Below, piece by piece: positions 1,795 through 25,731 of a stretch of DNA of 54,769 nucleotides. How positions within the stretch are numbered: position 1 is the first letter of the stretch; the number at the start of each line of letters is the position of its first letter. The position numbers were made by a program, and so were the translations under genes. The notes under the pieces are model-generated. The model worked only from the letters and a program-made list of their open reading frames with translations, was not told the origin of the DNA and did not search any database. Source of the DNA: a virus; the IMG/VR virus record IMGVR_UViG_3300021131_000008, positions 1 to 54,769 of that record; one strand, given 5' to 3'.

Positions 1795-3565
1795 TATTTC
1801 CTTTATAAAACCGGCTTGCGCCGATATCCGTTATTGTTTTAATTATAGCCTGAAAATACCAGTTGAAGTCAAGATCTTTGGGAATATTTTTAGGTAGGGT
1901 CATGCAAGCCTTGGCCCCATCGGTTTTTGCAACTTTATTTCCATTGGTTGCATAAGTGATTGGAGGGAGTTTTTCAGTGGTTTGATACCACCGTACCACT
2001 CTGCCTAAATGCTCATCTCCCTGAACTCCACCTCCTGTGACGTTACGTACGCTGATAAAGTCATTGATGTCTTGGCTCTTCAGCGTCTCCTCAAACGGAA
2101 CGCCACTCGCTAACCAGTTGGCTACAGCTTTAGAAACAACTGGTGCAGTAGGATTCTTGCTCAACGTTGGTGGACTATAAATACCTTTGATTTTTACGCT
2201 TCTATCTCCTTTCACCGCGTAATAATTATTCACATCTTTGAGCGCCACACAGCGGTAAAATGTAGCTTCAAAGATAAAACCAGTTCGCTCAGAAAACTCT
2301 TTTATAATCTGCTCAACTATAGCCAACTCAGATTTACGATAACGTAACATAATGCCGTCAGTGTTAGCCGATATGACTGTAATGCTTTCACTTTCAAGAG
2401 CTTCAATCAAGTTGAGCAAGTTCAGCTGACCAGTCAAAACGATATTGATCATAACGTCTGGCGAATAGAGTGGAGAAAACTTGTTAGCAGTTTTTCCAAA
2501 CGTTCCGTTCAATGCAATCCGCAATGAGTCCGCTATGACCATATTTTTAATTCGTTTACCTTCTAAACGGCGATAAAATAAAGTCCGGTACTCTTCCAAA
2601 AACTTTTCGCCTGTGTTTACAGGTATCAAGTTGCAGTTCAACATAATAGCGGGGTAGTAGGATGCTACGTCGTAGTCAGTTACATAATACTCATCGTCGG
2701 CAACGTAACAAACTTTACGGTCGTGCTGAGAGTGCAAACCGCCTACTCCCATTTGATAAATACCCGCGTTTATATTAACTAGATCGTCTTTCAAGAAGCT
2801 CGGCAGTTCAACATGACCCGTTGTAGGGCGAACATAAAACTCGTGCGCTGTGATACGTTCGGCTATCGCTTTCAACGCGGGTGTTTTGAATTTTATGAAG
2901 TCAGGTAGTTTATATTGAACAGACGCAGGTATCGAAGGTGCTTTACGTTTTAAGTTCAAACGTTTTACGAACATCTGCTCAGCCACCTGAGAGTCTGATC
3001 GACTTCTAGCATCGAACTTATATTCTCTACTGATTTCAAGGCGTAACTGCAATTGCCCCTGAAGTCGATTATAAAGTTCAGCGGTGGTATCAAGATCATT
3101 GAAACAGTATTTCAATACGGTTTGTTTTTGGTCGTCTTCAATCATCGCGTCATAGTGAAAAGGCAGATCTTGAATGACCGGCATATTCATACGAGCACCA
3201 TAAGTTTTTAAACTCACGAAACTCGGCGCTACTTCAATCAAATCAATGTGATCGACTTTCGGCATAGTGAACCCGTACTTTCTCTCTGCTTCCCACGGCA
3301 TCAAATTATTTCTGATAATTTCATCGCCTAACTGTTTTGTTTCAAGAAACGTTTTTCCAGAAACAAAATAAGCTATTACTGGCATATCATATTTATTACC
3401 GTTGAAACTGATAAACGTATTGTTTGATTTGAAAAGATCTTTTATTTGCGCGCGAGCGTCATCTTCATCTCCCCAGATATGAAAGTACGTTTTTGTGTCA
3501 AGAATCAATCCGCAAAATAGGAATAGATTCTTGAACACTTCCGTATCGAATACTATCGTTTTCAT
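1781..3565 (-). CDS. Family B DNA polymerase with 3'-5' exonuclease
   Basis: 594 residues, compact for the family. The exonuclease domain has Exo I FDTEVF (D7, E9), Exo II NGNKYDMP (D60) and Exo III YCFNDLD (Y153, D157). The polymerase domain has motif A DYDVASYYP (D299), motif B RIALNGTFGK (N353, G357) and motif C ANTDG (D403), where the first Asp of the usual DTD is Asn. The motif GVGGLHSQ near 273-280 may correspond to the linker motif between the two activities. It should replicate phage DNA together with the primase-helicase at 13539. The ATG overlaps the upstream stop as ATGA, which indicates translational coupling. Confidence 0.92.
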   Translation of the reverse strand: MKTIVFDTEVFKNLFLFCGLILDTKTYFHIWGDEDDARAQIKDLFKSNNTFISFNGNKYDMPVIAYFVSGKTFLETKQLGDEIIRNNLMPWEAERKYGFTMPKVDHIDLIEVAPSFVSLKTYGARMNMPVIQDLPFHYDAMIEDDQKQTVLKYCFNDLDTTAELYNRLQGQLQLRLEISREYKFDARSRSDSQVAEQMFVKRLNLKRKAPSIPASVQYKLPDFIKFKTPALKAIAERITAHEFYVRPTTGHVELPSFLKDDLVNINAGIYQMGVGGLHSQHDRKVCYVADDEYYVTDYDVASYYPAIMLNCNLIPVNTGEKFLEEYRTLFYRRLEGKRIKNMVIADSLRIALNGTFGKTANKFSPLYSPDVMINIVLTGQLNLLNLIEALESESITVISANTDGIMLRYRKSELAIVEQIIKEFSERTGFIFEATFYRCVALKDVNNYYAVKGDRSVKIKGIYSPPTLSKNPTAPVVSKAVANWLASGVPFEETLKSQDINDFISVRNVTGGGVQGDEHLGRVVRWYQTTEKLPPITYATNGNKVAKTDGAKACMTLPKNIPKDLDFNWYFQAIIKTITDIGASRFYKGNNETT

Positions 3566-3816
3566 CTGTCCTGATTCACGTAAGCTGAAGTGGGTTCAGA
3601 ACCGTCATCGGGATTTTCATTAACCACTTCAATATACTTCTCTAAAAAATGCTGAGCTTTTTTCAAATCAACTGTTCCGTTCTTCTTTTTCCATCGCGTC
3701 ACATACTTCGTGATTTGAGCTTGAAAATAGTCAAGATCGTTAGCCACCACGTAGTCCCAGTGCTGTATCTCAGACTGGTAATGTTTACCGCCTACTTGCT
3801 TATCATTTGCTGACAT
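3562..3816 (-). CDS. DUF3310 family protein
   Basis: 84 residues from ATG 3816. The motif VGGKHYQSEIQHWDYV and the following ITKYVTRWKKKNGTVDLKKA are the signature of DUF3310, a small phage family often linked to nucleotide metabolism genes. Biochemical function is unknown. An upstream in-frame TTG (3831) is less likely because a strong GAAAGGAG site sits just before the ATG. It overlaps the ThyA-like gene by 14 nt and the polymerase start by 4 nt, so all three are probably one operon. Confidence 0.85.
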   Translation of the reverse strand: MSANDKQVGGKHYQSEIQHWDYVVANDLDYFQAQITKYVTRWKKKNGTVDLKKAQHFLEKYIEVVNENPDDGSEPTSAYVNQDR

Positions 3817-4783
3817 TTTCTCTCCTTTCAATCCATTCGAATACTGCCGCTTTCCAATCTTCCGCTTTTATCATTTCAGCATATTTATATCCGCTTCCTT
3901 TTTTATTTTTACGAACATGAGACACCATGGCCATTGGGTAGGCCACTTCTTTGAAAAACTTGTGTGTGTACTTTGTTTCATCATTGAACGGATCTTTACA
4001 AAACCGATCGCAATCATGCAAAAAGCTAGCCCAACCTTCTTCAAATAATGGATAAGGTTTCAACCCCAATATCGCGTAGTAGTCGTAAGTGCTACTCGAT
4101 GGCGGCTGCATCATATCTTTGCTCGCGTCATACAGATCTGCGTACAAATGAAGATTATTTGAGATCGTATAATAGGTTCCGATGGGGATTTTGAGTGCGA
4201 TGGCGACAAATTCTTGTAGAATTGTAAAGTGTACCGCATTTGCACCTGCATAACCCCACCAGAAGTCGTTTGAACGATTGTTCACCATTAGATCTAAACA
4301 ACCGTTTTTAATTGAGAAAATCAACTGTGTATTACAAGCACGATCTTTTGTATCGATAACCAAATCATTTGCATCCCAGAGCTGTATAACCGCTTGACGA
4401 GAGTCAGGATTATTAGTCAAATGCGCGATCAACATTACCAATTGATCTACACCAAACTGTTGGCGCATGCGGTAACCATAGGCCGCGTTGAAAACACGCC
4501 CATCATCGCTGTACGCTCCTATCCGAGAGTTGAACTGACTAACAAAAGCTAAATCGTTTCTTCCGGCTAGTATCCACAAACTTTCCATTAAATGAAAAAT
4601 AGGATTAGCATCGCGCTGTGCATAAAAAAGAACTCTTTCTGTAGGATTAAATACTTTAGTTAATACTGGCTCTGGCATAACCCAAGCCTCGCCATTGCGG
4701 GTACTTGTTTTCTTAGCCGATACTTTGAATCTCCAAAGTGCATCTTCGAAAAGCGTATTTATATTTCTAGCTGAAATTTCCAT
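3803..4783 (-). CDS. Thymidylate synthase-fold enzyme, possible dUMP hydroxymethylase
   Basis: 326 residues of the ThyA/dCMP hydroxymethylase family: ESLWILAGRND (67-77), SRQAVIQLWD (128-137), a probable catalytic Cys150 in DRACNTQ, and NRSNDFWWGYAGANAVHF (169-186). N182 aligns with the Asn that selects uracil over cytosine in ThyA, but with one extra residue before it, so dUMP is the likelier substrate. Family members make either dTMP or 5-hydroxymethyl-dUMP, and residues alone do not settle which. The next genes are the helical partner (start/stop overlap) and the hmdU DNA kinase, which favours a hydroxymethylase feeding thymine hypermodification. A plain phage ThyA is the alternative. Confidence 0.85.
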   Translation of the reverse strand: MEISARNINTLFEDALWRFKVSAKKTSTRNGEAWVMPEPVLTKVFNPTERVLFYAQRDANPIFHLMESLWILAGRNDLAFVSQFNSRIGAYSDDGRVFNAAYGYRMRQQFGVDQLVMLIAHLTNNPDSRQAVIQLWDANDLVIDTKDRACNTQLIFSIKNGCLDLMVNNRSNDFWWGYAGANAVHFTILQEFVAIALKIPIGTYYTISNNLHLYADLYDASKDMMQPPSSSTYDYYAILGLKPYPLFEEGWASFLHDCDRFCKDPFNDETKYTHKFFKEVAYPMAMVSHVRKNKKGSGYKYAEMIKAEDWKAAVFEWIERRENVSK

Positions 4784-5643
4784 TAAAATGCCTTTTCTGA
4801 TTTATAAAGTTGTCTAGGAGCACCTTGCGTCAAATACGCACGCATATATTTATCATATTCGCACATAACATTTTGAACGTCATGAAGTGTTATATCTTTT
4901 AAATCTGCATTTGACCCTATTAACGCATTGCGTATGTCTAATAACTCGCTATTGAATTTCTCTTGTGTAATTTTATCCTTCAAATATCGATAGTGCAACC
5001 GATTGAGCCCTCTTATACTTCCTGGCCCTATCGGCGCCCAAGTAAATAAATCAGTAGCCTCATCAAGTTGATCTTTTATATACGACAAGTCAGCAGCCAC
5101 TTGGCCAGCTATAAATGTTTGTATACCAAATGACGTAGCTAGCGCGGTTGTAACATTTTCAATTGACTTGCTTTCAACTTGCTTTCTTATCTCGTCTTTT
5201 ATCTCGATGGTCGGCATTATTATATAATTACACAAGTTATACGCTTTTGTGTTACCTTTCATTCGAGTCGGATAAACTATATATGCACTTGAATACGTTT
5301 TTTGTTTCAATTGTTCAAGATCTTTCATCGCATTAAGAAACAGCTTCGCATCAAACTCTTCTACTGTATGCGGTATTGCGTTATATTCCATTAATTTTAT
5401 AAGCGTTGGCGGCCAGTTTATCAAACGAGCTATTAGCGCTCTGAACCAAACATCGCCGGTTGTACATTTGTAATAATTATCAAGTAACCACTTTGATACT
5501 CGATCATGCTTTCTACGTACATTACAAAATCGATACTTCGCAAATATGGGGTCGTTAGTCAACGACAACGCACCACGTTCTTTTCTCAATCTTATTGATT
5601 CACGTTCATTGACTATACTAATTAGCACCTCATAAAATATCAT
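4783..5643 (-). CDS. 5-hmdU DNA kinase helical-domain / aGPT-PPlase-like protein
   Basis: 286 residues from ATG 5643, which has AAGGGGTG upstream. Residues 10-53 carry the signature INERESIRLRK, TNDPIFAKYRF and NVRRKHDRVSKW, which I recognise from the helical proteins linked to 5-hydroxymethyluracil DNA kinases and alpha-glutamyl/putrescinyl thymine pyrophosphorylases in phages with hypermodified thymine. The rest is mostly alpha-helical. It overlaps the kinase gene by 14 nt and the ThyA-like start by one base (TAATG). It probably acts on DNA containing hydroxymethyluracil, either as kinase partner or as the group-transfer enzyme; which of these cannot be told here. Confidence 0.75.
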   Translation of the reverse strand: MIFYEVLISIVNERESIRLRKERGALSLTNDPIFAKYRFCNVRRKHDRVSKWLLDNYYKCTTGDVWFRALIARLINWPPTLIKLMEYNAIPHTVEEFDAKLFLNAMKDLEQLKQKTYSSAYIVYPTRMKGNTKAYNLCNYIIMPTIEIKDEIRKQVESKSIENVTTALATSFGIQTFIAGQVAADLSYIKDQLDEATDLFTWAPIGPGSIRGLNRLHYRYLKDKITQEKFNSELLDIRNALIGSNADLKDITLHDVQNVMCEYDKYMRAYLTQGAPRQLYKSEKAF

Positions 5644-6220
5644 TTTCACCCCTTTTAAAAATATCAAGCGTTTCATTGAATGCGTCCATATAATCAACAG
5701 TTAGTACTTTTACGCCTCCCATTGCATGAAGATTTTTGCAAGCAGCAAAAGTCGACTTATGCGCGCTAATTGTATTCTGAGGATTAAATGGACGATCATC
5801 TCCACGCTCTTTTCTACGTGCTAGGACGCGCTCTAAGCAAAGATCCAAAGGTGTGTCAAGGTACGCAGCAACATACGCACCAGTAGGTTTCAACATCTGA
5901 GTGGTTATGGCGTTTGGCCCGACCTTTGAAATCAATAATCCTTCAAGAAGAACATGGCCTTTAGGATGCGCGGCTAGCGCACGATCAGCTATCTCTTCTT
6001 GCGTACTGATACCATCTGTTCCTCCGCAAGTGTTGGCGTAAGACCCTATCACATAGAGCTTTTTCGCTAACCCTTCGGATGATAAATCAACTTCATACCC
6101 CCAATGTTTTTTACCATTCGGATCGGGCAGAGTTACAGTTGGATAATCAGTAAGAAACTTACGTGCTACTGTAGTCTTGCCACTTCCACTAGTTCCTCTG
6201 AGCGACAATATTATATTCAT
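5630..6220 (-). CDS. P-loop 5-hydroxymethyluracil DNA kinase-like protein
   Basis: 196 residues from ATG 6220. This start overlaps the upstream stop as ATGA and has GGGAG eight bases before it; the earlier in-frame ATG at 6235 is less favoured. Residues 5-13 hold the Walker A RGTSGSGKT. A glycine- and Cys-containing segment (SYANTCGGTDG) and an arginine-rich lid-like segment (ERVLARRKERGDDRPF) follow. The pattern matches phage P-loop kinases proposed or shown to phosphorylate 5-hmdU in DNA so that the activated base can accept an amine or amino acid. The helical partner and ThyA-like genes directly downstream support this. A generic nucleotide kinase is the alternative. Confidence 0.75.
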   Translation of the reverse strand: MNIILSLRGTSGSGKTTVARKFLTDYPTVTLPDPNGKKHWGYEVDLSSEGLAKKLYVIGSYANTCGGTDGISTQEEIADRALAAHPKGHVLLEGLLISKVGPNAITTQMLKPTGAYVAAYLDTPLDLCLERVLARRKERGDDRPFNPQNTISAHKSTFAACKNLHAMGGVKVLTVDYMDAFNETLDIFKRGENDIL

Positions 6221-6429
6221 GAAGTTTTCTCCCATAAGATAACTTTCTCTAATGCTTGATAACGAAGTACTTGTAATTTCACTTTATCCATCGCTTTTTC
6301 AAGTTTGATTTTTGATGGCACTAACCAATCAGGAAAAAACGAGCTAACCATGAGCTCTCCTGCAGTAATCAATTTACCATTGTTATCCCGCTTTGCAGGT
6401 GGCGGTTTCTTGCCTATTATTAATCTCAT
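6217..6429 (-). CDS. Small basic protein of unknown function
   Basis: 70 residues from ATG 6429 (an in-frame TTG five codons earlier is less likely). It begins with MRLIIGKKPPPAKRDNNG and is lysine-rich and soluble-looking. Both ends overlap neighbouring genes by 4 nt (ATGA), so it is translated as part of the modification-gene operon. No family is recognised. Confidence 0.6.
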   Translation of the reverse strand: MRLIIGKKPPPAKRDNNGKLITAGELMVSSFFPDWLVPSKIKLEKAMDKVKLQVLRYQALEKVILWEKTS

Positions 6430-6521
6430 TCTTCTCTCATCCAATTAATAAAATCAAACATCATATAAAACGCCATCCCACATGCGATTCCCTGCACGAA
6501 AATCCTAGCACCGTCCGTCAT
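6426..6521 (-). CDS. 31-residue single-span membrane peptide
   Basis: A very short gene with a strong ribosome site (AAAGGAGG, 6 nt before the ATG at 6521). Its product is 31 residues with one hydrophobic stretch, FVQGIACGMAFYMMFDFINW, enough for one membrane span. Its TGA overlaps the next ATG. It overlaps the upstream gene by 17 nt. The function is unknown; such micro-proteins in early phage operons can be host-takeover or exclusion factors, but that is only a general possibility. Confidence 0.55.
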   Translation of the reverse strand: MTDGARIFVQGIACGMAFYMMFDFINWMREE

Positions 6522-6702
6522 TGTCATCCTCCTTTAACTGTGGCGGTATGGAAAAACGCTCTGGAAACGTCTTAATATACTCACCAACAGCGTCAGCCAT
6601 TGAACCAGCTTCACTTGATGCGCCAACTTTCATCACACCTTCACGCGTTGTTAGCCACCCCGCAAAATCATAGATGTCAGTTTCGGCAAGTCGATACGTC
6701 AT
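6505..6702 (-). CDS. Small conserved phage protein
   Basis: 65 residues. The segment FAGWLTTREGVMKVGASSE followed by EYIKTFPERF resembles small accessory proteins seen in many phages, with no assigned activity. The start overlaps the upstream stop by 4 nt. It lies in the run of very short genes between the kinase and the transferase-like gene. Confidence 0.6.
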   Translation of the reverse strand: MTYRLAETDIYDFAGWLTTREGVMKVGASSEAGSMADAVGEYIKTFPERFSIPPQLKEDDNDGRC

Positions 6703-7064
6703 TTGTTTTTCTCCCGTAATTTTTCTTGAATTGCAAAGTAAACATCAGTAACTGTAAAACTGCTCCAAGTTTTCATGCTGTCGCAAATCATTGTCAATTC
6801 ATCTTGCGTCAGCCCAACCCATGTGCGTTGTGGTGGGTCTTTGTACAGCGGGATTCCAGCAGACCCATCCGTTACTTCTCGCCAAATGTTGTCAGTAAAC
6901 TTGGCAAATTTACCTACAGGCTCTTGCTCTGACTGCTTTAAGGATTCTTTAATCGCGGTAATGGCGGCATACATTTCTGGTTCAAAGTCAGCCAAAATCC
7001 AACCATCTTTATTGACGCGTTCAATAAAATTAAGCGCAATCTTCAATGCTTTATCTTTACTCAT
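6699..7064 (-). CDS. Small accessory protein with WVGLT module
   Basis: 121 residues. The N-terminal part is helical (ALKIALNFIERVNKDGW and AAITAIKESLKQSEQEPVGK), a layout common in small phage proteins. The C-terminal part carries RTWVGLTQDEL, a module shared with the genes at 7061-7285 and 7804-8118. The function is unknown. ATGA overlaps at both ends place it in the operon. Confidence 0.6.
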   Translation of the reverse strand: MSKDKALKIALNFIERVNKDGWILADFEPEMYAAITAIKESLKQSEQEPVGKFAKFTDNIWREVTDGSAGIPLYKDPPQRTWVGLTQDELTMICDSMKTWSSFTVTDVYFAIQEKLREKNK

Positions 7065-7285
7065 TTGTTTTTCTCCCGCAATGCCGATTCAATGGCATCG
7101 ACAAAGTTACGCGCATATTGAGGCACACGCCCATATTGCCCATAGTTAAGCATCTCCATGATTTCCTCATCCGTCAGCCCTACCCATGTGCGCTGTGGCA
7201 GTTCTGTAACTAAAGATTCAATCCCGCCATTGAGTTCAACGGCAACCCTTATGGTTTTGTCTGAAAATGAAACTCTGATGGTCAT
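7061..7285 (-). CDS. Small accessory protein with WVGLT module
   Basis: 74 residues. The N-terminal strand-rich part (MTIRVSFSDKTIRVAVEL) is followed by PQRTWVGLTDEEIMEML, nearly the same module as in its neighbours. The C-terminus EKNK is also shared with the upstream paralogue, which suggests module shuffling by recombination. The function is unknown. Confidence 0.6.
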   Translation of the reverse strand: MTIRVSFSDKTIRVAVELNGGIESLVTELPQRTWVGLTDEEIMEMLNYGQYGRVPQYARNFVDAIESALREKNK

Positions 7286-7551
7286 GCTTGTCCCCTTGCT
7301 CGGATAGAAACGCCAATCTGATATGCCGCACTTGATTGAATGGGCGCAGTCAAAAGTGCATTTGTATTGAATAATTGACTATCCGCAATCCTTGCACACG
7401 CCTCACGCTCGGCTTCTACTGCTTTGCGTATCTCTGCTTCTAACCCTGCCTTTGACCACAGCGACATTGGGCCAATTGCGGCTGTTACTTTTTGTATTGT
7501 GCATCGCCCACCTGCAAGTTCGCGCAATAAAATTTCTTCATCTTTAGTCAC
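7282..7551 (-). CDS. Small accessory protein with EREACA...IRARGQ module
   Basis: 89 residues. Contains KAVEAEREACARIAD and ends in SIRARGQA. The next gene carries the same two motifs (EREACAKVCEE and TIRARGQS), so the pair are partial paralogues or share a mobile module. The module is frequent in small phage proteins of unknown function. Confidence 0.6.
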   Translation of the reverse strand: MTKDEEILLRELAGGRCTIQKVTAAIGPMSLWSKAGLEAEIRKAVEAEREACARIADSQLFNTNALLTAPIQSSAAYQIGVSIRARGQA

Positions 7552-7814
7552 GATTGTCCCCTTGCTCGGATGGTTGCGGCAAATTCAGTTCGTGTTCCGT
7601 ATCCAACGTATTCCTCACACACTTTTGCACACGCCTCACGCTCATCAGCACGAGCGGCAAGACAGCAGGGTTTGTTGGGTTGTATCTCTCGTGCATCCAT
7701 CAGATTTTGCAATCTTGCAAATTTTTGTTTCCATGCGTCTTCTATTGTTTTTTGCATAGATTCTTCTAGTGATTTTGCGTAACGTTTGCCTATTTTTTCA
7801 TATTCATCTTCCAT
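7548..7814 (-). CDS. Small accessory protein with EREACA...IRARGQ module
   Basis: 88 residues. A charged helical N-terminus (EKIGKRYAKSLEESMQ) precedes the module EREACAKVCEE...TIRARGQS shared with the downstream neighbour. The last 18 bases of both genes are nearly the same (TTGCTCGGAT region on the plus strand at about 7291 and 7562). The function is unknown. Confidence 0.6.
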   Translation of the reverse strand: MEDEYEKIGKRYAKSLEESMQKTIEDAWKQKFARLQNLMDAREIQPNKPCCLAARADEREACAKVCEEYVGYGTRTEFAATIRARGQS

Positions 7815-8118
7815 TGTTTTTTTCCTTTAACTTAGCTTCAAGAGCTACCATCAAATCTTCATCGTCGTGAGATGGGTCACCCCAACCCACCACATCCCGC
7901 CAAAGTTTATTGCGCTCCTCATCTGTCAGCCCTACCCATTCGCATGGTGGGTGTGTGTAAAGGGGTTCCCAATTACCTTCGGTTGGTCTGCCAGCAATTT
8001 TGATCGAAAGCCTACCGTCCGGTAGTTTAGAGAACCACGCCACAGGGTCTTTACTCATATCTCTTCTCCTATTTTTACACGTGCATCTTCTTCCTTGGCC
8101 GCAGTCTTGTGTACACAT
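7804..8118 (-). CDS. Small accessory protein: Cys-rich head plus WVGLT module
   Basis: 104 residues if started at ATG 8118. That start has a good GCGGAGG site and gives the Cys-rich N-terminus CTQDCGQGRRCTCK, which resembles a recurring motif at the start of small phage proteins. An alternative ATG at 8058 (MSKDPVAWFSK), overlapping the previous stop as ATGA, would drop this head. The C-terminal part has CEWVGLTDEE. The four closely spaced Cys could bind a metal. The function is unknown. Confidence 0.6.
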   Translation of the reverse strand: MCTQDCGQGRRCTCKNRRRDMSKDPVAWFSKLPDGRLSIKIAGRPTEGNWEPLYTHPPCEWVGLTDEERNKLWRDVVGWGDPSHDDEDLMVALEAKLKEKNNGR

Positions 8119-8300
8119 AAATCCTCCGCTTTATGTCTAGCTATAATATTGCGTTGCATAAGATTTTTATTAAATATTGTTTTTATGCAATGCTTGCATT
8201 TCCACCTTTTTATCTTTCCCGACCAGTAAAATTTCCCCTTGATCTTTATTTGATGTGTTTGGCAGTTTGTGCAAAACTTCGTCTCTAGATCGCCATCCAT
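8055..8300 (-). CDS. Small zinc-finger-like protein
   Basis: 81 residues from ATG 8300, which has TGGAGAAAG upstream. Two Cys pairs, KFCTNCQ and WKCKHC, are about 26 residues apart with basic residues between them, as in a small treble-clef or zinc-ribbon-like domain. The last 64 nt overlap the start of the next gene in another frame. The first 131 nt overlap the 3' part of 8170-8376, so one of the two reading frames may be a degraded tail. Regulatory or nucleic-acid-binding function is possible but unproven. Confidence 0.5.
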   Translation of the reverse strand: MDGDLETKFCTNCQTHQIKIKGKFYWSGKIKRWKCKHCIKTIFNKNLMQRNIIARHKAEDLCVHKTAAKEEDARVKIGEEI

Positions 8301-8376
8301 ACTTTCTCCATATTTTAGTAACGTCTGTTTGCGCCGCATTGACGTAAACGAAATTTTTATTAAGTATTGAAATCAT
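8170..8376 (-). CDS. Small protein, possibly with an out-of-frame tail
   Basis: 68 residues. The start at 8376 overlaps the transferase-like stop as ATGA, so initiation is credible. The first part, FVYVNAAQTDVTKIWRKYGW, resembles small phage proteins that end soon after this motif. The remaining 40 residues overlap the zinc-finger-like gene and may not be conserved. Either this is a normal gene with a long overlap, or an indel has extended the frame. Confidence 0.4.
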   Translation of the reverse strand: MISILNKNFVYVNAAQTDVTKIWRKYGWRSRDEVLHKLPNTSNKDQGEILLVGKDKKVEMQALHKNNI

Positions 8377-9383
8377 ATTTCCCCCAGTATATATTTAGCA
8401 CGAAACGGTACTCCGGTTTCGGCAAATAAGCTCGCTTTGATTTTTCTCGGCGTTACTGTTTTTTCACATTCTTCGCGTAACCAGTCAGGCAACCAGCTAG
8501 CACGAATATCTTTAAATACGTTGGTCAGTTCATTCATGCCGCGGTTGTCGTACCATTTTATGCGGTCCCATCCCATATCGGCGTAAACGCCAGGATACCG
8601 CCGTGAGAAAAATCCATTCTTGAATTGACACAAACAAGACTCTAACGTAAACTTGTTCAAATGTTGGTGCCCGTTATAATCTAATTTGAATTCATTCAAA
8701 AATACTTCCGCTTTCTCTTCCAGTTGATTTGTTAATATGCTGAAGTCAATGTAATTCCCATCGTGAGAGTTAGGCTGTCGTTTGTCCCAGACATGATCGT
8801 CAAGACCCAACAAGAAAAACATGCCATTACGATGTGACCGTGATCCGTTCAAGTCATTAAAAACAAGAGTCTCACAATCCGCTCCATAACCGTTTAAATA
8901 TACGTATTCAAGATACGAGAAACAGGACAGCCGTCCAAAACTGTAAATATTCTCAGCGACTTCCCAAAGATCTTTATAACTTTTATCTATTGAAAGCAAC
9001 TTGGTTTGTGAGCCAGCTGCTTTAACTAATTCAGCATAAGAGTAAAGACCTTTGATAGTGTGTTTTTTCTGTTTATTTCGATCAGTATCAAAACTAAGAA
9101 GCGGCCACTCTTTGTCAAACCATGCTTGAAAACTAACCCACTCTTTTATGCTCTGTGGAATAGCAGGCATAAACTTAAAAATACGCAAACTAGTGATGGG
9201 GTTTTGAGTATGTCCATTGATCGCTGCAAACCAGAGCATCTCCTCATCAGTCCAGTTGAAATGCGATTTAAGTTTGGGCATATAAAGATAAACTAGCCCA
9301 GGATGAACTTTTAAAGCTAAATTCAACTTGTATAACTGAGAAAAATAGCTACGGCGGTTCTCTTTCAATCGATAGTCAGTCAT
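8373..9383 (-). CDS. Amino acid:DNA transferase-like protein (aGPT-PPlase clade 2 / ADDT type)
   Basis: 336 residues from ATG 9383 (AGG six bases upstream). Diagnostic segments are WFAAINGHTQNPITSL (51-66), the basic DTDRNKQKK (99-107), GRLSCFSYLEYV (150-161) and SRSHRNG (181-187). I recognise these from the proposed alpha-glutamyl/putrescinyl thymine pyrophosphorylases, also called amino acid:DNA transferases, which attach an amino acid or polyamine to phosphorylated hydroxymethyluracil in phage DNA. The hmdU kinase, helical partner and ThyA-like enzyme lie downstream on the same strand. The transferred group cannot be read from the sequence. Confidence 0.75.
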   Translation of the reverse strand: MTDYRLKENRRSYFSQLYKLNLALKVHPGLVYLYMPKLKSHFNWTDEEMLWFAAINGHTQNPITSLRIFKFMPAIPQSIKEWVSFQAWFDKEWPLLSFDTDRNKQKKHTIKGLYSYAELVKAAGSQTKLLSIDKSYKDLWEVAENIYSFGRLSCFSYLEYVYLNGYGADCETLVFNDLNGSRSHRNGMFFLLGLDDHVWDKRQPNSHDGNYIDFSILTNQLEEKAEVFLNEFKLDYNGHQHLNKFTLESCLCQFKNGFFSRRYPGVYADMGWDRIKWYDNRGMNELTNVFKDIRASWLPDWLREECEKTVTPRKIKASLFAETGVPFRAKYILGEI

Positions 9384-9472
9384 ACGTACCTCGCAAATAA
9401 AGGTAATCCAAAAACAACTAGCCAAAAGACCATTAACCACGTCACTGCCCACAATGTAATTTCACGTATCAT
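9380..9472 (-). CDS. 30-residue single-span membrane peptide
   Basis: A micro-gene fitted exactly between two larger genes: its ATG (9472) overlaps the methyltransferase-like stop and its TGA overlaps the transferase-like ATG. The product has one long hydrophobic run, LWAVTWLMVFWLVVFGLPLF, bounded by charged residues (MIRE and ARYV). A membrane location is clear; the role is unknown. It is too short for most gene finders. Confidence 0.55.
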   Translation of the reverse strand: MIREITLWAVTWLMVFWLVVFGLPLFARYV

Positions 9473-10206
9473 TTGTCAACTCTCCTCAATCCATTTTTAG
9501 CTGAACCAGCAGGCAAGCGCAGAAACTCGGCTTGATCAGGCGCGGTTGGCTCTAATCGATAATAAAAACTGTTAGCATGATATGCGCACCCCGTAATTGA
9601 ATACTTGTAACGCTCCCAAAACCTTCGACTCATTGAGTAAATATAACTCTTTCGGTCTGAGTCAATACGAGAGTCGATCTTATTGTAGTTTTTCCAACCC
9701 ACATGATATCGACAAGAAGACCCATCAGTCATTACAATGTACTTGGGCTGCTTGGCGGTCATGCGACGCAGTTCTTGTTCCCAACGGCCTTTTAAGTAAC
9801 GCCCCAGAGAGAAGAGCGGGAAGTCGCAAAGATACAAATCAGCGTACTCTGTGCCCAATACCTTTGTTGCGTCAGCATTTTGAATCTTTACGGGGTACTT
9901 GTTTAGCGAGTGTTCAAGTTGCTGTAAACAAGTCTCATCGATCTCGCTTATCACATGCACCTTCGGTTTGATCAACTCTTGCGTAGCGGTAGCAAATATG
10001 CCCACACCGCCAAAAGGTTCACAAACCAACATATTTAACGGCATGTTGCGCATAAGCCATGCTACGCACTGCACGTTTTTACCAGTTTCGGTAGGGCGTT
10101 TATTGAGATAGTCGTAATACGACACGCCACCTCCTTCCATTGCGCGGCCCTCTCCAGGAGTTAATTCAAACGGAAACTTATTTAGTATCAGCCACTGACT
10201 TGACAT
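9469..10206 (-). CDS. SAM-dependent methyltransferase-like protein
   Basis: 245 residues with a Rossmann methyltransferase layout: motif I CEPFGGVGIFA (62-72), an acidic pair at the end of the second strand (SEID, 87-90), an NADATKV segment and a motif IV-like YLCDFPLF (125-132) where DNA N-methylases have DPPY/F. The Pro-Pro is altered, so the target is uncertain; DNA methylation or a base-modification step is possible. The start at 10206 has AAAGG seven bases upstream and overlaps the previous gene by 29 nt. It sits just upstream of the transferase-like gene, so a link to DNA modification is plausible. Confidence 0.55.
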   Translation of the reverse strand: MSSQWLILNKFPFELTPGEGRAMEGGGVSYYDYLNKRPTETGKNVQCVAWLMRNMPLNMLVCEPFGGVGIFATATQELIKPKVHVISEIDETCLQQLEHSLNKYPVKIQNADATKVLGTEYADLYLCDFPLFSLGRYLKGRWEQELRRMTAKQPKYIVMTDGSSCRYHVGWKNYNKIDSRIDSDRKSYIYSMSRRFWERYKYSITGCAYHANSFYYRLEPTAPDQAEFLRLPAGSAKNGLRRVDK

Positions 10207-10720
10207 ATAAACCTTTCTTCGCTAAATATTCGTTACGGTAGTCGATAAACCACCAAGGAGTAGCACCTTCATCTTTGAACCAAATCATCTTCATAGTATC
10301 CGCTTTACTCGCGTAGTACTTCTTATACGCTTCAACAAAATCAGACCCACGGAACTCTTCGGGCATGGCCTGCGGTGGTTGTACCCATTTACAGTTTGTT
10401 AACGCAGGTGGTGCATGACGCAGCTCTTTCTCAAACACCGCTTCACAAGCGTGCGTCTTTCCAAATCGCTTGCGAAACTCGCAGGCTAAATGAATCGCCA
10501 AATCAGACACAAACTTGTAATGCAGTTTTGACTCACGAACCCAGACCGCGCAGGGATGATTTTTATGAGTAGGCTTGTAAGTAACCGCGTCACCATTACC
10601 CAGCACATGATGAGCCGTAGCTAATAACTGGCAAGACTCAAGCAGCATTTTGCCAACGTGAATGTCAGCGTGATAGCGTGCTGAAGCAATTGCGGTATGA
10701 TGGAGAAAGAAGATGTTCAT
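10178..10720 (-). CDS. Conserved phage protein of unknown function (His-rich helical)
   Basis: 180 residues. The N-terminus MNIFFLHHTAIASARYHAD, then HVGKMLLESCQLLATAH, NHPCAVWVRESKLHYKF and SDFVEAYKKYYASKAD belong to a widespread phage family that I know only by pattern. Several invariant-looking His, Trp and Arg residues suggest an enzyme. It is the first gene behind the promoter at 10762-10790 and leads the operon that contains the methyltransferase-like, transferase-like and kinase genes. Confidence 0.65.
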   Translation of the reverse strand: MNIFFLHHTAIASARYHADIHVGKMLLESCQLLATAHHVLGNGDAVTYKPTHKNHPCAVWVRESKLHYKFVSDLAIHLACEFRKRFGKTHACEAVFEKELRHAPPALTNCKWVQPPQAMPEEFRGSDFVEAYKKYYASKADTMKMIWFKDEGATPWWFIDYRNEYLAKKGLYVKSVADTK

Positions 10721-16473: not shown

Positions 16474-17903
16474 TGGATGACGCAGTAATAGAGCGAATTG
16501 CTCAGCGCATAGAAGAGAAGAAAGACGAGCTCGCTTTGTTACCCGCACCGATGCGTGCTGCGGTAAAAGCTCGCATCAAGTGGTTGAATCTTGCTAAGTC
16601 TCACCAAATACCTCCGGCGGGAGATTGGTGGGACATCTGGCTGTTACTTGCTGGTCGAGGTGCAGGCAAGACCCGTACTGCTGCCGAGGATATCTGGTGG
16701 CTGGCTTGGTCTACTCCTGGAACGCGGTCTCTGGTCTCAGCACCGACCTCAGCGGACGTACGGGACGTTTGTTTTGAAGGTGAATCAGGCTTGATGAGTA
16801 TAGTGCCTCCAGAAATCGTCAGAAACTATCGTAGCAGCTACCACGAGCTCGAGCTGACGAATGGCTCACTTATCAAAGGAATTCCTGCCAGCGAGCCTGG
16901 AAGGTTCCGTGGACCTCAGTTCCATCGCGGTTGGCTAGACGAGCTTGCAGCGTGGGACTACCTAGACGAAGCTTGGGACATGATCGCCTTCGGCATGCGG
17001 CTCGGCCAGCATCCCATCACGATCGTCACTACGACGCCAAAACCTAAACCCAAAATCGTAGAGCTGATAGATCGCGATGGTGACGACGTTGTGTACGTCT
17101 CGGCTAGCACCTACTCGAATATTGACAACCTTGCGCCATCGTTCAAGAAGCAGATACTTCAATACGAGGGAACCACGATGGGTCGGCAGGAGATCTACGC
17201 CGAGATCATCGATCCCGAAGAGTCCGGTGTCGTCAAACGCAACTGGTTTAAACTTTGGGATGCTGAGAAACCTCTACCTCAATTCGAGTACGTCGTACAG
17301 AGTTACGACTGTGCCACATCCGACAAGACTGTTAACGATCCGACTGCTTGTACGGTTTGGGGGATCTTCAAGCCTAACCCCGACAAACCGGTCAGCGTCA
17401 TGTTGATCGACTGTTGGACTGAGTACCTGAAGTACCCAGACCTCCGACCGAGGGTGATAGAAGAGTACAAGTCAGTCTACGGCGATATGAACGAGTTCGG
17501 CAACGGGAAAAAGGTCGACATGATATTGATCGAAGACAAGTCGGCAGGCATCTCGTTGATACAGGATCTTCAACGAGCTGGCCTACCGATACGCTCTTAC
17601 AATCCAGGAAACGCCGACAAGATGATGAGGCTAAACATTATTTCCCCCCTTATCGAGAAAGGTCGGGTATACTTGCCTGAATCTTCTAAAAATGAGGGGC
17701 ACGCTCGAGATTGGTGTGAGCCGTTGATCAACCAGCTTTGTTCGTTTCCTGATGTGCGGCATGACGATCTGGTTGACAGCACAACGCAAGCACTACGGAT
17801 TCTTCGAGACTTGGGTTTTTTGGTGATTGATTATATCCCAGACGATACGGATATGTACATAGACGACACTAGACCTAGAAGGGTTAACCCATATGCCGTA
17901 TGA
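16473..17903 (+). CDS. Terminase large subunit
   Basis: 476 residues. The ATPase domain has Walker A LAGRGAGKTR (59-68), Walker B GWLDELAAW (153-161) and a coupling motif VTTTP (185-189). The nuclease domain has SYDCATS (D279), ILIEDKSAG (E354, D355) and RHDDLVDS (D431, D432, D435), the expected RNase H-like acidic residues. It packages phage DNA into proheads and cuts the concatemer. Overlaps of one and eleven bases with its neighbours show tight coupling. Confidence 0.95.
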   Translation: MDDAVIERIAQRIEEKKDELALLPAPMRAAVKARIKWLNLAKSHQIPPAGDWWDIWLLLAGRGAGKTRTAAEDIWWLAWSTPGTRSLVSAPTSADVRDVCFEGESGLMSIVPPEIVRNYRSSYHELELTNGSLIKGIPASEPGRFRGPQFHRGWLDELAAWDYLDEAWDMIAFGMRLGQHPITIVTTTPKPKPKIVELIDRDGDDVVYVSASTYSNIDNLAPSFKKQILQYEGTTMGRQEIYAEIIDPEESGVVKRNWFKLWDAEKPLPQFEYVVQSYDCATSDKTVNDPTACTVWGIFKPNPDKPVSVMLIDCWTEYLKYPDLRPRVIEEYKSVYGDMNEFGNGKKVDMILIEDKSAGISLIQDLQRAGLPIRSYNPGNADKMMRLNIISPLIEKGRVYLPESSKNEGHARDWCEPLINQLCSFPDVRHDDLVDSTTQALRILRDLGFLVIDYIPDDTDMYIDDTRPRRVNPYAV

Positions 17904-20900
17904 CGCATTAGGCAACTATGTTCCAGGAGATGATACTCCTACATCCGATGACATGAGCTACGCTACATCGGTACCCACAGCGCAATCTTATCAGCAGCAA
18001 CGCATGGCTCGTGTGCCACAGAATCTACAAGGCATGGGCGCACCAGCACGTGGCCTGACTGATCTATTGACCGGCGCAGCCAAAGGCACATTAGCCGCAA
18101 CAGTAGGTGCTCCAGGAGATATAAGCCAGATGCTGCGGGACATGTCGCCTGAAGTCAGGGCGGTCATGGAACGTAAGTTTGGGTCACGAAGCTTCCCTAC
18201 GACGCAAGAGACATTGCCCTACATCCCGTCAACAAACCTCTCGGGTACGAATGTCGGAGAGACGGGCACAACGTTAGGTTCAAACATCGTAGCGCCATTG
18301 GCCGGTCCGCAGCTCTTAGGTGCAGCTGCCCGTGGCACAGCAAAAGCAGCCAAGGCTGCCGCCCCAAGCGTAGCGCAAATGGCAGCTGAGCTAATGGAGA
18401 AGCAAGGCCTCGGCCCAATGTATGTGGTCAAGCCTAATAAGGGTGGCAACTGGCTAAAGGACGAGGTTGAGCATGCGGTGAAGCCGCTGAAGTCTCGTAC
18501 CCCTGCTATGGGGCCATTTGGAGACCCTGTACCATACCATTTGCAAGACATTGCTAGTGATAACCCCGTTAACGCCTGGATCGACAAGAAACTTGTGCCG
18601 TATATCAAAAATGAGATGGGCACACCGGAAGATCCAGTTCGGCTAGGCATTGAGAAACGTGTTGCGGACGCTGAAGCTAGAAAAGCGCAAGGTGAAAAGC
18701 GTATAGCTAAACTTCAGACGGCAGTAGCTGAAGGCGAACGACTTGGTGCACCGTCGCAACTAACACGTGATCGGTTAGCAACTGAAATTGATAACGTTGC
18801 AAATCAGTACAACACTGACATGGCATCCGTCATGCACTCCGACGATTTAAACTATAATAATAACTATACTCCTCGTAACCAAATGTCGACGACAGCGCAG
18901 TCTAAGCACTGGGAAGGCGCAAGTGACATACAAATCGGTGAAAACAAGGCAGGAGAACTGATAGAGGAAAAACCGTTCCTTGTAACTGGCCCATTTAACG
19001 CTCGCTTAAAAACACGAGAAGAAGCACAGGCATATCTTGACAGGCTAAATAAGCTGGGTGAATTTGCGCCTGAGCTAGCTAAAAAATTGCGTTTATATCC
19101 ACCAAAGATTGTAGAAACAGGCGCACACATTGAAAATCCATGGCTCAAAAAAGTTGCATCTGATACGCCTGTGTACAGGATGTCAACGGGCGTAGATGAC
19201 GATTTGCAGTTTAAGCATCTTACCGACGAGCTGAAGAACGCACTGAATCCGCAGTCAGGTCTTCCACCTGAGCTATTGCTTTCACCGAATAAGATGCCTA
19301 AGACCGTTGATGATGCCATAGCGCATGTTGGCAAGATCAATGCGTGGCGAGCTCGTAATATGGCGAACGCGCAAATTAAAATTACTGAGGGGATGCCAGT
19401 TCACAAACAGTACCCCGAAGGTTACAAATGGCTTGAGTTAACAAAACCCAAACTGCCAGACGTATTGCCAGACGCATTGCCAGAGGGCTACACAGTCAAA
19501 CCTACTGAAAAGGAGGGCTGGTTTTCGGTTCACGAACCACCTTCCGAAAATTATCCCAATGGACGAAGCACTGGTGCAGTGGGTCGATCGCCCGAAGAGG
19601 CTATTGCTAATCATGATTTTAGTAGAGACGCTCTTGATAAAGCCCTCAAGTATGAAGGCGCGACCATGGGCCACTGCGTTGGAAGCTATTGCGAAGATGT
19701 TGAAAGTGGAAGATCTCGCATTTATAGTTTACGTGACGCAAAAGGTGAGCCTCATGTGACTGTTGAAGTCATGCCTAAAAGTATTAACAATTGGAAAGAT
19801 GTTAAGGCATTAGTTGGCCCAGAGAAAGGCGAGGAATTGCTTGGGGAATTCAGCCAGTTGCCCGATGTTTCTGAGGGAGATACTTACAGAAAGTTTATTG
19901 ATTTTATTGAAAGCAAAGGAATTAAAGCGCCTGAGATTATCAACCAAATCAAAGGCAAAGGCGACGGTGCGGTTAAGGAAAAATATTGGCCATATGTGCA
20001 TGATTTTGTTAAATCACAACCATGGAGTAAAGTTCGTGAGTTAGAAAACGCTGGACTAATGCCTTTTAAAGGCGGCTATATTACTGAGCCTGAATTTAAA
20101 GCATACACAAAATCAGTTATAGACCCTGCAAAAGAGTGGTACTACAATTCGCCTTATCATCAGACGTATAAGCAGGACTTTGATCGTAAGTCTGATTTGT
20201 ACAAAGACTTAAATCAATGGTCTGAAAGAACTAACATACCTGTAGGTCGACAAAAATTTAGTATTTCTGATATTAACGGTGTGCTTTCTGATACAGGTGG
20301 CCATGATATATCGACGCTGGAAAACGTACGTGATGCCGTTGACTGGTTAAAAGCAAATCAACCAGAGATACCAAAGCATCTATTGCCTGAGACGCCGCCC
20401 ACAAAAGGCATGAAAGACGGCGGTATCGTGCACATGAAAGAAGGTGGTAGAGCCATACCAAACGGCTTTGATCTTAACCAGTATATGCCTTCTGCACCGG
20501 CTAATGCGCAGCCTATTGCTACGGAGCCTACGCCACAAGCCACTATTGAGCAGATGCGAGCAGAGTTGCAACGAGCCAAAGAAGGCACACAAGCGTTATC
20601 AGCGCAGTTTCCGTCAGTTAAACCGGCGTTTCCTGACTTAGGTAAAGCGTATGGCGCAACTGAAGCTGCAGGCAATATGCTTTACAATACTGCAATAGCG
20701 GTTCCAGGCGCATTTGGTGCTGTAGGCAAGAGCATTAACGACTACGCAGCAGGTCGTACGCCCTATCCTGCAACGTCGCTAGACACGCATATGGGCGACT
20801 TTATGCAACAATATGGCTCAGCGCCTAGTACGCCAACGGGCCAAGAGTACTATAACAAAGCATCCGAAGTTTTAAGCAACATACCGCCTGTAATGCCTGA

Positions 20901-22299
20901 GTTACATGCTGCGCCATCGATAGCGCAGATGAAAGCTGAGTTGCAGTATGGCGCAGCTAAAGCTGCACCGCATGCAGGAAAAGCTGTACATAATATACTT
21001 GAAGCGCAAGGTTTAGGGCCTAGCTATGTTGTACCGCCTGAAAGTGTGCATCCAATTCTTGATCGTTTACAGACTACAGTGTCGCCCAAAATCGCGCATG
21101 CTGCGTCAACGTCAAAAGAAACAGGTAAACCGCTTGTTCAGCATCTTACTGATAAAGAGCGCGATACGATTATGAATGCATCTCTAATTCTTAGACGGTC
21201 GCAACTAGGCGATATTTTTGGGCCTAATGGTCGATTATTGAATGTGCATGAAAGTGGCAAAACAACCGCAGCAGCAGGTGCTAAAAACTCTATTAAAATT
21301 CGTTCGGAATGGGAACCTCAGTTTCTTGGTGGAACAGACATTAATTACGGCTATTTAACGTCTAACCCGCTAAGTACGACTAAATTACCTGTTGAGCTTC
21401 AATACAATAAAAAAGGTGACCCGTATCTTATGCCTGCTGATGATGTTATTCATTACGGGTCATACGGGCTTGAATTAGGTCCTGAAGCAAGAAGTAGATC
21501 GACGTTTACGTTAGGAGACTCTCTTGACGGAGGCCGAGGAAACTATGCAACGGCTGAAAGCATTATCAACCCTCCTGGCCCGCGCCACGACATTGCACAG
21601 CCAGGATCGATATTGCATGATCTTGCTAAAAACTACTGGGATACGTATTTGCCGATTATTGATAAAATGCGCAGTAAAACCGGTGTTATTGATCACTATG
21701 CTGCTGCAGAAATGATGAAAGAGCTTGGATTTGCAGGTCATTTCAGAGACTATTTGGCACAAGAAGGGTTTGGGCAAATGGGCGCCAATTTTCCTAGATT
21801 ATCGCCTAGGCCAATTAACGACCCGCGGTCTACGCCACTAATGAATACTGAGAGATTTAACTTAGGGGTTCTTGATCGACAAATTGATCGATCGTTGCCT
21901 TCAATGGGCGCGGATTACATAGAAGGTCAGGTTCACGGAGGCGTACAGCCGCAGGACGTTACGCGACTATACGACTTTAACTATGAGCCTAGTCTTGCCG
22001 TTGAAAAGAGAGCTAAGAAGTTTGGCATTGAGTATGTGCCTATGCCAAACGATACAATCTACAGTCTTGTGCAAAAAGAGCAACCTAAAACAAAACGTGA
22101 ACTTGCTGAGCTGCTAGGCCCAGAACGGTTTCGAGGCGCTAAAAATTATCTGCCTTCGAACAAATCACAAGCATCATGGGCTGATGCGCCTGCTCCTAAA
22201 TTCGGCAAAAGTTTCAAAAACGGCGGCGTGGTTCATATGCAAGAAGGCGGTAATGTTAACATTGACGAAATGCGCTTAGCGCTAACAAGGGGTAGATAA
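17893..22299 (+). CDS. Very large protein with PcfJ-like and ART/DUF3626-like regions
   Basis: 1468 residues, between large terminase and portal. Residues about 570-640 contain MGHCVGSYCEDVESGRSRIY and SLRDAKGEPHVTVEV, which resembles PcfJ-like proteins. The second half has YGSYGLELGPEARSR, TFTLGDSL and DYIEGQVHGGV, which recall DUF3626/ADP-ribosyltransferase-type domains. The two halves share a layout: a PSxAQMxAEL helix, QGLGPxYVV, a domain, then a tail GGIVHMKEGG (about 840) or GGVVHMQEGG (about 1445). This suggests an old tandem duplication with different domains swapped in. It may be an ejected effector; no function is proven. Confidence 0.55.
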   Translation: MPYDALGNYVPGDDTPTSDDMSYATSVPTAQSYQQQRMARVPQNLQGMGAPARGLTDLLTGAAKGTLAATVGAPGDISQMLRDMSPEVRAVMERKFGSRSFPTTQETLPYIPSTNLSGTNVGETGTTLGSNIVAPLAGPQLLGAAARGTAKAAKAAAPSVAQMAAELMEKQGLGPMYVVKPNKGGNWLKDEVEHAVKPLKSRTPAMGPFGDPVPYHLQDIASDNPVNAWIDKKLVPYIKNEMGTPEDPVRLGIEKRVADAEARKAQGEKRIAKLQTAVAEGERLGAPSQLTRDRLATEIDNVANQYNTDMASVMHSDDLNYNNNYTPRNQMSTTAQSKHWEGASDIQIGENKAGELIEEKPFLVTGPFNARLKTREEAQAYLDRLNKLGEFAPELAKKLRLYPPKIVETGAHIENPWLKKVASDTPVYRMSTGVDDDLQFKHLTDELKNALNPQSGLPPELLLSPNKMPKTVDDAIAHVGKINAWRARNMANAQIKITEGMPVHKQYPEGYKWLELTKPKLPDVLPDALPEGYTVKPTEKEGWFSVHEPPSENYPNGRSTGAVGRSPEEAIANHDFSRDALDKALKYEGATMGHCVGSYCEDVESGRSRIYSLRDAKGEPHVTVEVMPKSINNWKDVKALVGPEKGEELLGEFSQLPDVSEGDTYRKFIDFIESKGIKAPEIINQIKGKGDGAVKEKYWPYVHDFVKSQPWSKVRELENAGLMPFKGGYITEPEFKAYTKSVIDPAKEWYYNSPYHQTYKQDFDRKSDLYKDLNQWSERTNIPVGRQKFSISDINGVLSDTGGHDISTLENVRDAVDWLKANQPEIPKHLLPETPPTKGMKDGGIVHMKEGGRAIPNGFDLNQYMPSAPANAQPIATEPTPQATIEQMRAELQRAKEGTQALSAQFPSVKPAFPDLGKAYGATEAAGNMLYNTAIAVPGAFGAVGKSINDYAAGRTPYPATSLDTHMGDFMQQYGSAPSTPTGQEYYNKASEVLSNIPPVMPELHAAPSIAQMKAELQYGAAKAAPHAGKAVHNILEAQGLGPSYVVPPESVHPILDRLQTTVSPKIAHAASTSKETGKPLVQHLTDKERDTIMNASLILRRSQLGDIFGPNGRLLNVHESGKTTAAAGAKNSIKIRSEWEPQFLGGTDINYGYLTSNPLSTTKLPVELQYNKKGDPYLMPADDVIHYGSYGLELGPEARSRSTFTLGDSLDGGRGNYATAESIINPPGPRHDIAQPGSILHDLAKNYWDTYLPIIDKMRSKTGVIDHYAAAEMMKELGFAGHFRDYLAQEGFGQMGANFPRLSPRPINDPRSTPLMNTERFNLGVLDRQIDRSLPSMGADYIEGQVHGGVQPQDVTRLYDFNYEPSLAVEKRAKKFGIEYVPMPNDTIYSLVQKEQPKTKRELAELLGPERFRGAKNYLPSNKSQASWADAPAPKFGKSFKNGGVVHMQEGGNVNIDEMRLALTRGR

Positions 22300-25134: not shown

Positions 25135-25316
25135 TGGAAATTAGCGCCCTCATTACGCTGATCAAACACCGGCAACAAGAAATTGTTACTGGGATGGCAA
25201 ACGGGAATTGTATAAATTTCGAGAGTTATCAACGTTTGGTTGGCCAGCATGTGGGATTGCAAGAATGTTTGCAATTTATTGATAACTTACTAAACGAGGA
25301 AAGAAATGTCGAATGA
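25134..25316 (+). CDS. Small helical late protein
   Basis: 60 residues: MEISALITLIKHRQQEIVTG, then INFESYQRLVGQHVGLQECL and FIDNLLNEERNVE. This short helical type is common next to portal or chaperonin genes in phages of this kind. The function is unknown. It overlaps both neighbours (TAATG at the start, 11 nt at the end). Confidence 0.6.
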   Translation: MEISALITLIKHRQQEIVTGMANGNCINFESYQRLVGQHVGLQECLQFIDNLLNEERNVE

Positions 25317-25731
25317 CGTTACAGAACAGACGCTTGATGAAGCGTTTCCTGCAGTAGACCCAATGATGGCGCCTTATGGTGGTAGAGTTTTAGTGCAAGT
25401 GCGCGCTGTAAAAGAGCGTGTAACTTCTGCTGGGATTCATCTGCCTTCAGAAACAAAAGAAACCGAGAAGTGGAATACCATGATCGGTAAAGTAATTGCC
25501 ATTGGGCCGCTTGCATTTAAAAAGCGTGATACGATGGAACCGTGGCCAGAAGGTTCCTGGGCTCAAGTTGGTGATTTTGTACGCTTTCCTAAATGGGGCG
25601 GTGATCGTTGGGAAGTAGAATTTACAGACGCAAGTGGCATTAAAGGCCAAGCGTTATTTACTTTCTTCAATGACCACGAACTGATTGGAAAAGTAACCGG
25701 TGATCCGCGCGGCATTCGCGCATTTATCTAA
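25306..25731 (+). CDS. GroES-like co-chaperonin
   Basis: 141 residues. YGGRVLVQVRAVKERVTSAG is followed by IHLP, where the GroES mobile loop carries the GroEL-binding IVL-type tripeptide. KVIAIGPLAFKKRDTMEPWP and GDFVRFPKWGGDRWEV complete a Cpn10 beta-barrel. By analogy with T4 gp31, it would replace or assist host GroES so that host GroEL folds the capsid protein. Its place between portal and scaffold genes supports that. RBS GAGGAAAGAA precedes the ATG. Confidence 0.85.
   Translation: MSNDVTEQTLDEAFPAVDPMMAPYGGRVLVQVRAVKERVTSAGIHLPSETKETEKWNTMIGKVIAIGPLAFKKRDTMEPWPEGSWAQVGDFVRFPKWGGDRWEVEFTDASGIKGQALFTFFNDHELIGKVTGDPRGIRAFI

Follow-up and report, generated by a model that had tools for sequence, protein, structure and literature searches.

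The locus described here raises the question of whether a phage that joins an amino acid to the thymines of its DNA leaves this adduct as it is or tailors it further. It lies in IMG/VR virus record IMGVR_UViG_3300021131_000008, whose entire stretch of 54,769 bases was analysed and is called the window in what follows. A tightly packed run of thymine-hypermodification genes occupies positions 3803 to 9383 of the minus strand, and the gene of a protein that we call MTlike lies just beyond it on the same strand (9469 to 10206, 245 amino acids). Hypermodified thymines give phages resistance to restriction enzymes, and the enzymes that make them are useful as DNA tools. Our analysis indicates, with a probability of roughly 0.7, that the locus is a thymine-hypermodification operon extended by one undescribed tailoring enzyme. 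The candidate for this enzyme is MTlike, which is predicted to have the fold of an S-adenosylmethionine (SAM) methyltransferase and whose gene is linked to that of the amino acid:DNA transferase (ADDT). The source of the window is a freshwater virus of bacteria, and its nearest DNA match among phages is a stretch of only 39 bases.

MTlike and its linkage to the amino acid:DNA transferase

MTlike has no family match in Pfam, PHROG or NCBIfam, including their curated methyltransferase families, and its sequence matched nothing meaningful in the PDB. Its structure was modelled with AlphaFold from 31 homologs (pLDDT 92.9, pTM 0.91), and the model has the Rossmann-like fold of class-I SAM methyltransferases: the best match is PH1948 (Z 15.6), and the close structural neighbours are Trm1 (Foldseek 4e-7), RsmD, Trm5, TYW2 (Z 14.7), TrmM and METTL5. 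The residues that are invariant in the family (G67xG69, D90, F129 and P130) and those that are nearly so (D112 and D128) follow predicted strands 1 to 4, the usual positions of the SAM-binding and catalytic motifs. The model and these residues suggest that MTlike is an active SAM methyltransferase. Among 50,697 phage records, the only homolog found was gp39 of cyanophage Pam3; a pattern scan of 84,980 bacterial and archaeal genomes found none, and full-text literature searches, whose coverage excludes the pathway-defining papers Lee 2018, Lee 2021/22, Iyer 2013 and Wen 2024, gave no mention of the protein. One viral locus (L058:775-2321) has a tandem pair of MTlike genes directly upstream of ADDT, with products 39% and 47% identical to that of the window.

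The linkage was assessed in about 42 loci obtained by scanning viral contigs with MTlike alone. ADDT lies within 1.5 kb and on the same strand in 43 of the 45 MTlike copies that have at least 1 kb of room, and in most cases the two genes overlap or are less than 20 nucleotides apart. A frequent freshwater layout comprises genes for a pyridoxal phosphate (PLP) enzyme, MTlike, ADDT, a kinase, HMUDK_hel, a protein of the thymidylate synthase (TS) fold and an HD nucleotidase; another group, largely marine-looking (origin in IMG/VR unchecked), has ParB_N, Tet_JBP, MTlike, ADDT and a P-loop kinase. MTlike is thus found with ADDT under both sources of 5-hydroxymethyluracil (hmU), the dUMP hydroxymethylase and TET/JBP, and since these systems do not share their hmU-making and helical parts, its constant partner is ADDT, together with a P-loop kinase of some family. 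On a quick ADDT tree with moderate support, the presence of MTlike changes at least six times. At locus L042, ADDT has 60% identity with that of the window, but MTlike is closer to the TET-group type (42% identity) than to the window's (23%). The converse is seen at L128: ADDT has 69% identity with the TET-group type, but MTlike is closer to the window-like clades (41-45%) than to the TET-group type (30%). Judged by these identities, MTlike and ADDT pairings have been reshuffled between lineages, and an inherited neighbourhood alone would hardly account for this.

The initial annotation of this DNA had allowed for a simple adduct as the final base, and in doing so it overlooked that gene 9469 has a class-I SAM-methyltransferase fold and is tied to ADDT. 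Because this gene combines a methyltransferase fold with a link to ADDT in many viruses, the final base is probably tailored beyond the plain adduct. Gene 9469 had been listed as a tailoring or accessory candidate together with the gene at 10178 and a set of micro-genes; the proposal agrees with what we predict for 9469, but it does not hold for the gene at 10178, which is not specific to the pathway, nor for the micro-genes, which are small paralogs.

The core enzymes and their conserved order

The TS-fold protein (3803 to 4783, minus strand, 326 amino acids; PF00303 8e-19, phrog_5131 5e-101) is the predicted source of 5-hydroxymethyldeoxyuridine (hmdU). Its best matches in the PDB are the MilA CMP 5-hydroxymethylases (1e-27), which rank above all thymidylate synthases, and it falls far under the NCBIfam equivalog cut-offs for thymidylate synthase. 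With E. coli ThyA it has the catalytic Cys146, Arg166, Asp169, Asn177, His207 and Tyr209 in common, whereas Trp80 is lost, Trp83 is replaced by Tyr, His147 by Asn and Gln165 by Asn; SPO1 gp29, annotated as a dUMP hydroxymethylase, has the same residue pattern, with Phe at position 83. The hydroxymethylase signature at positions 80, 147, 165 and 177 is matched by 74 of 74 relatives. Uracil is read by Asn177, and T4 dCMP hydroxymethylase has Asp at this position. Given the residue signature with Asn177, the protein is predicted to be a dUMP 5-hydroxymethylase of the SPO1 gp29 type.

Upstream of it on the minus strand are the genes of HMUDK_hel, the aGPT-Pplase1-type helical partner of the kinase (4783 to 5643, with a likely ATG at 5643 in an open reading frame (ORF) of 4783 to 5697; PF18723 1e-37), and of a P-loop 5-hmdU DNA kinase-like protein (5630 to 6235, 201 amino acids; AAA_33 2e-6). 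A kinase family profile built from the relatives matches gp13 of phage YuA (3e-22) and gp49 of Pam3 (2e-28), and HMUDK_hel is homologous to YuA gp14 (4e-54) and Pam3 gp50 (4e-60); YuA gp13 itself matches HMUDK_HMUD1 (8e-18), and YuA gp14 matches HMUDK_hel (8e-59). In view of these matches to gp13 and gp14, the layout of kinase and HMUDK_hel as two genes is the same as in YuA, and the two proteins are predicted by sequence to fit the definition of a 5-hmdU DNA kinase. Their genes overlap by 14 nucleotides, and those of HMUDK_hel and the TS-fold protein by 1 nucleotide. A frameshift fusion of kinase and HMUDK_hel was considered and rejected: since the second of the overlapping genes has its own ATG and YuA keeps two genes, no frameshift is needed.

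The ADDT gene (8373 to 9383, minus strand, 336 amino acids; PF18724 1e-13, phrog_3271 5e-55) starts at an ATG at 9383, in agreement with the initial annotation, and this start is aligned with those of its relatives. The best structure match of its AlphaFold model (pLDDT 92.8) is PaMx11 gp46, also called PUGT, a 5-phosphomethyldeoxyuridine (5-PmdU) glycinyltransferase (8z2m, 8z2n), which has the same fold (Z 15.8 over about 254 residues) at an identity of about 8%, so distant that its amino-acid specificity is not transferable. Behind it come a queuine salvage enzyme and DNA glycosylases, with a Z of 9.8 at most. A search of PDB sequences with the ADDT profile gave spurious matches only, and the relation to 8z2m is visible through structure alone; the Pfam and structure matches together predict that the protein is an amino acid:DNA transferase. 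Among bacterial and archaeal genomes, ADDT was found in one contig of an actinobacterial metagenome-assembled genome (L165), where genes for a ParB-like protein, a TET-position protein, ADDT, a PLP enzyme and a kinase adjoin a terminase; this is a prophage or a phage contig with a TET-type pathway. One viral locus (L124:1787-5208) has two types of ADDT, the M6 type and that of the window, with a PLP enzyme and MTlike in between.

The relatives comprise more than 100 loci from viral-contig scans with ADDT and with the TS-fold protein. The order kept across them is ADDT, kinase, HMUDK_hel, TS, DUF3310, PolB, gp32-like, Sak4, SSB, Cas4-like exonuclease and RuvC, and the order of the first four is found in dozens of freshwater contigs. 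Kinase, HMUDK_hel and TS lie downstream of ADDT in 72 of the 82 ADDT genes with at least 4.5 kb of downstream sequence, some contigs being counted twice; the other 10 belong to TET/JBP-type or other phages. This recurrence is far above chance. The kinase usually follows ADDT directly in the relatives, and in the window eight overlapping small ORFs (micro-genes; 6217 to 8339, minus strand), which stand outside the conserved pathway, are inserted between the two. These results bear out the initial annotation, which had placed four pathway proteins on one strand at 3803 to 9383, in the Pfam and PHROG profiles, the active-site residues, the synteny and the structure comparison; the kinase and the helical protein do not fall outside the hmdU-modification families, one of the outcomes that it had named as decisive against it. 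Its further remark, that no PLP decarboxylase, radical-SAM or acetyltransferase gene was recognised, holds for the window proteins scanned: Pfam scans of most window proteins found none of these and no Nmad5 gene, and neither YuA gp11, gp12 and gp15 nor the PLP profile of the relatives (f0) has a match in the window. The core pathway is a further member of an already known kind of hypermodification.

Proposed pathway and its alternatives

We propose that the TS-fold enzyme would make 5-hydroxymethyl-dUMP, which host kinases would convert to the triphosphate and the phage polymerase would incorporate; that, once the DNA is complete, the P-loop kinase and its helical partner would phosphorylate selected hmU residues at the 5-hydroxymethyl group; and that an amino acid would displace the phosphate through ADDT, giving an amino-acid-modified thymine. 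These three steps, with their reactions deduced from the predicted enzymes, very probably form a pathway. In a fourth step, the adduct would be modified by MTlike; the most likely reaction, and the most economical one to assume, is methylation at the amino or the carboxyl group. That MTlike acts on the adduct, by a reaction deduced in the same way, is reasonably probable. Because no decarboxylase or isomerase was recognised in the window, the carboxyl group of the added amino acid is probably retained. The purpose of the modification would be evasion of host nucleases. The odds seem to us even that MTlike is the first known of a virus-only family that uses SAM to methylate or alkylate an amino acid attached to thymine, a family repeatedly recruited to ADDT and combinable with a fold-II PLP enzyme.

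It is important to consider several observations that weigh against this proposal or the numbers behind it. Many relatives have the same core and no MTlike, so MTlike is optional and not required; in two loci (L135 and L138) it does not adjoin ADDT, and the MTlike of Pam3 is separated by about 5 kb from an ADDT of the M6 type. Its motif IV, after strand 4, reads DFP, compared with the textbook DPPY or NPPY of amino methyltransferases. The window kinase alone matches HMUDK_HMUD1 at 1e-3, which is under the Pfam cut-off. Many of the loci lie on partial contigs, some contigs entered the tally repeatedly, and the counts are not independent. By adjacency alone, a tailoring enzyme is indistinguishable from an ordinary DNA methyltransferase that happens to reside in a modification island.

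The latter case corresponds to a pathway that ends at ADDT with a plain amino-acid adduct, with MTlike as an ordinary adenine or cytosine base methyltransferase that gives separate protection. The base methyltransferases METTL5, RsmD and Trm1 among the nearest folds would agree with this, as would the close relatives that share the core without MTlike; however, an ordinary DNA methyltransferase would have no reason to stand beside ADDT in nearly all carriers or to be paired with it again in unrelated lineages, and MTlike matches none of the methyltransferase families searched. We consider this explanation unlikely, with an appreciable residual chance. More doubtful still is that MTlike uses SAM for another transfer, such as that of the 3-amino-3-carboxypropyl group as in TYW2, or that it is a non-catalytic, DNA-binding guide for ADDT: TYW2 is indeed among its nearest structures and the adjacency would suit a partner protein, but the Z score of TYW2 is tied with those of true methyltransferases, the SAM motif residues and the D-x-P motif are conserved as in an active enzyme, and many ADDT loci have no MTlike. 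A reading in which the TS-fold enzyme would be a plain thymidylate synthase, and the operon would have no part in thymine hypermodification, is very improbable. The matches to PF00303 and to PHROG families named thymidylate synthase speak for it, and they are set against the hydroxymethylase signature in every relative compared, MilA as the best PDB match, the missed NCBIfam cut-offs and the fixed linkage of the gene to kinase, HMUDK_hel and ADDT. A hypermodification operon in which MTlike tailors the adduct is the explanation that we prefer.

Known systems, neighbouring genes and implications

The window resembles phages YuA and M6, of the 5-(2-aminoethyl)deoxyuridine (5-NedU) type, in having a dUMP hydroxymethylase-like TS, a P-loop kinase and a separate HMUDK_hel in the same order near the DNA polymerase, and a member of the ADDT family. 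In addition, YuA encodes Nmad5, a PLP enzyme resembling threonine dehydratase and a photolyase-like protein of the radical-SAM type. None of them was found in the window, which therefore falls outside the M6/YuA-type (5-NedU) subtype, whose locus includes a PLP enzyme, a radical-SAM protein and Nmad5. A search of YuA found no MTlike, and its ADDT is missed by our ADDT profile. Pam3 (ON014755) shares with the window the MTlike homolog (26% identity), the P-loop kinase, HMUDK_hel, TS and ADDT, but it also carries PLP, radical-SAM-like and Nmad5 genes. In sequence, the ADDT of the window stands closer to proteins of mycobacteriophages and kutterviruses than to that of YuA. Mycobacteriophages of the Zemanar type (ParB, a TET/JBP-position protein, ADDT and Ploopntkinase3) have an ADDT 33% identical to that of the window, the best in the phage records; their kinase is of another family, and the stretch has no TS-fold hydroxymethylase, HMUDK_hel or MTlike. 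The ADDT-like protein of the ViI-like kutterviruses is 28% identical (5e-20), but the annotation shows neither a kinase nor a TS gene within 5 kb of its gene. The DNA of this genus contains 5-(2-aminoethoxy)methyldeoxyuridine (5-NeOmdU), and the genes of this ADDT-like family are scattered (PMC11721090).

Other optional genes occur in relatives at the place of MTlike: a fold-II PLP enzyme, DXD glycosyltransferase-like genes and a dCTP deaminase-like gene. The nearest PDB entry to the fold-II PLP enzyme is D-cysteine desulfhydrase (9e-6). This enzyme, which is not in the window, was observed near ADDT at L104:4948-5910 and in 40 other loci (PALP 1e-4; phrog_3650 for one relative), and in Glutamicibacter phage Montesquieu it is annotated as 1-aminocyclopropane-1-carboxylate (ACC) deaminase and stands beside ADDT. 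A glycosyltransferase-like gene (f27) lies just upstream of ADDT in four loci (L035, L036, L037 and L039), as does an additional DXD glycosyltransferase (Gly_transf_sug 4e-9) in L039/L067; sugar tailoring of the modified thymine by such genes is possible.

Several neighbours of the pathway were also examined. The DUF3310 gene (3562 to 3819, minus strand; PF11753 7e-7), present in 109 loci and directly downstream of TS in most relatives, possibly functions in nucleotide metabolism. The gene at 10178 to 10720 (minus strand) overlaps that of MTlike by 29 nucleotides and encodes a phrog_624 'DNA binding protein' (2e-47), which by eye we take to resemble T4 endonuclease V (HADxH, PEEFRGSD). It occurs in 22 loci, with or without MTlike and often without; its role as a pathway enzyme is unsupported, given its presence in only some relatives and its independence of MTlike. 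Three of the micro-genes (u121, u74 and u104) are mutual paralogs (1e-9 to 1e-6), and positions 6699 to 8118 form an array of small paralogous ORFs with a WVGLTxDE motif and overlaps of 4-11 nucleotides. The seven micro-genes tested have no PHROG family, and matches were found in one to three loci, their own locus counted; as small paralogs with almost no counterparts in the relatives, they were rejected as tailoring factors. The structural genes recognised in the window are those of portal, terminase and tail-fibre-like proteins; no sheath or tape measure was recognised, and most structural genes are without assignment. The description 'podovirus-like' in the initial annotation is thus not established. 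The window also encodes a GroES-like co-chaperonin among the head genes (25306 to 25731; Cpn10, 9e-9) and, between terminase and portal, a 1468-amino-acid protein (17893 to 22299) in which a PcfJ-like patch (3e-6) is the only recognised feature.

To our knowledge, the tailoring classes comprise radical-SAM isomerases, PLP decarboxylases, flavin lyases and acetyltransferases, and a SAM-methyltransferase step is absent from them. As a family of this fold that is linked to amino-acid transfer, MTlike suggests a chemistry outside these classes. The presence of MTlike, of the PLP enzyme, of both or of neither beside the same core would predict which virus carries which base. If our proposal is true, there would be phages with a class of bases such as N-methyl-aminoacyl-thymine, and thymine decorations would be of a mix-and-match kind.

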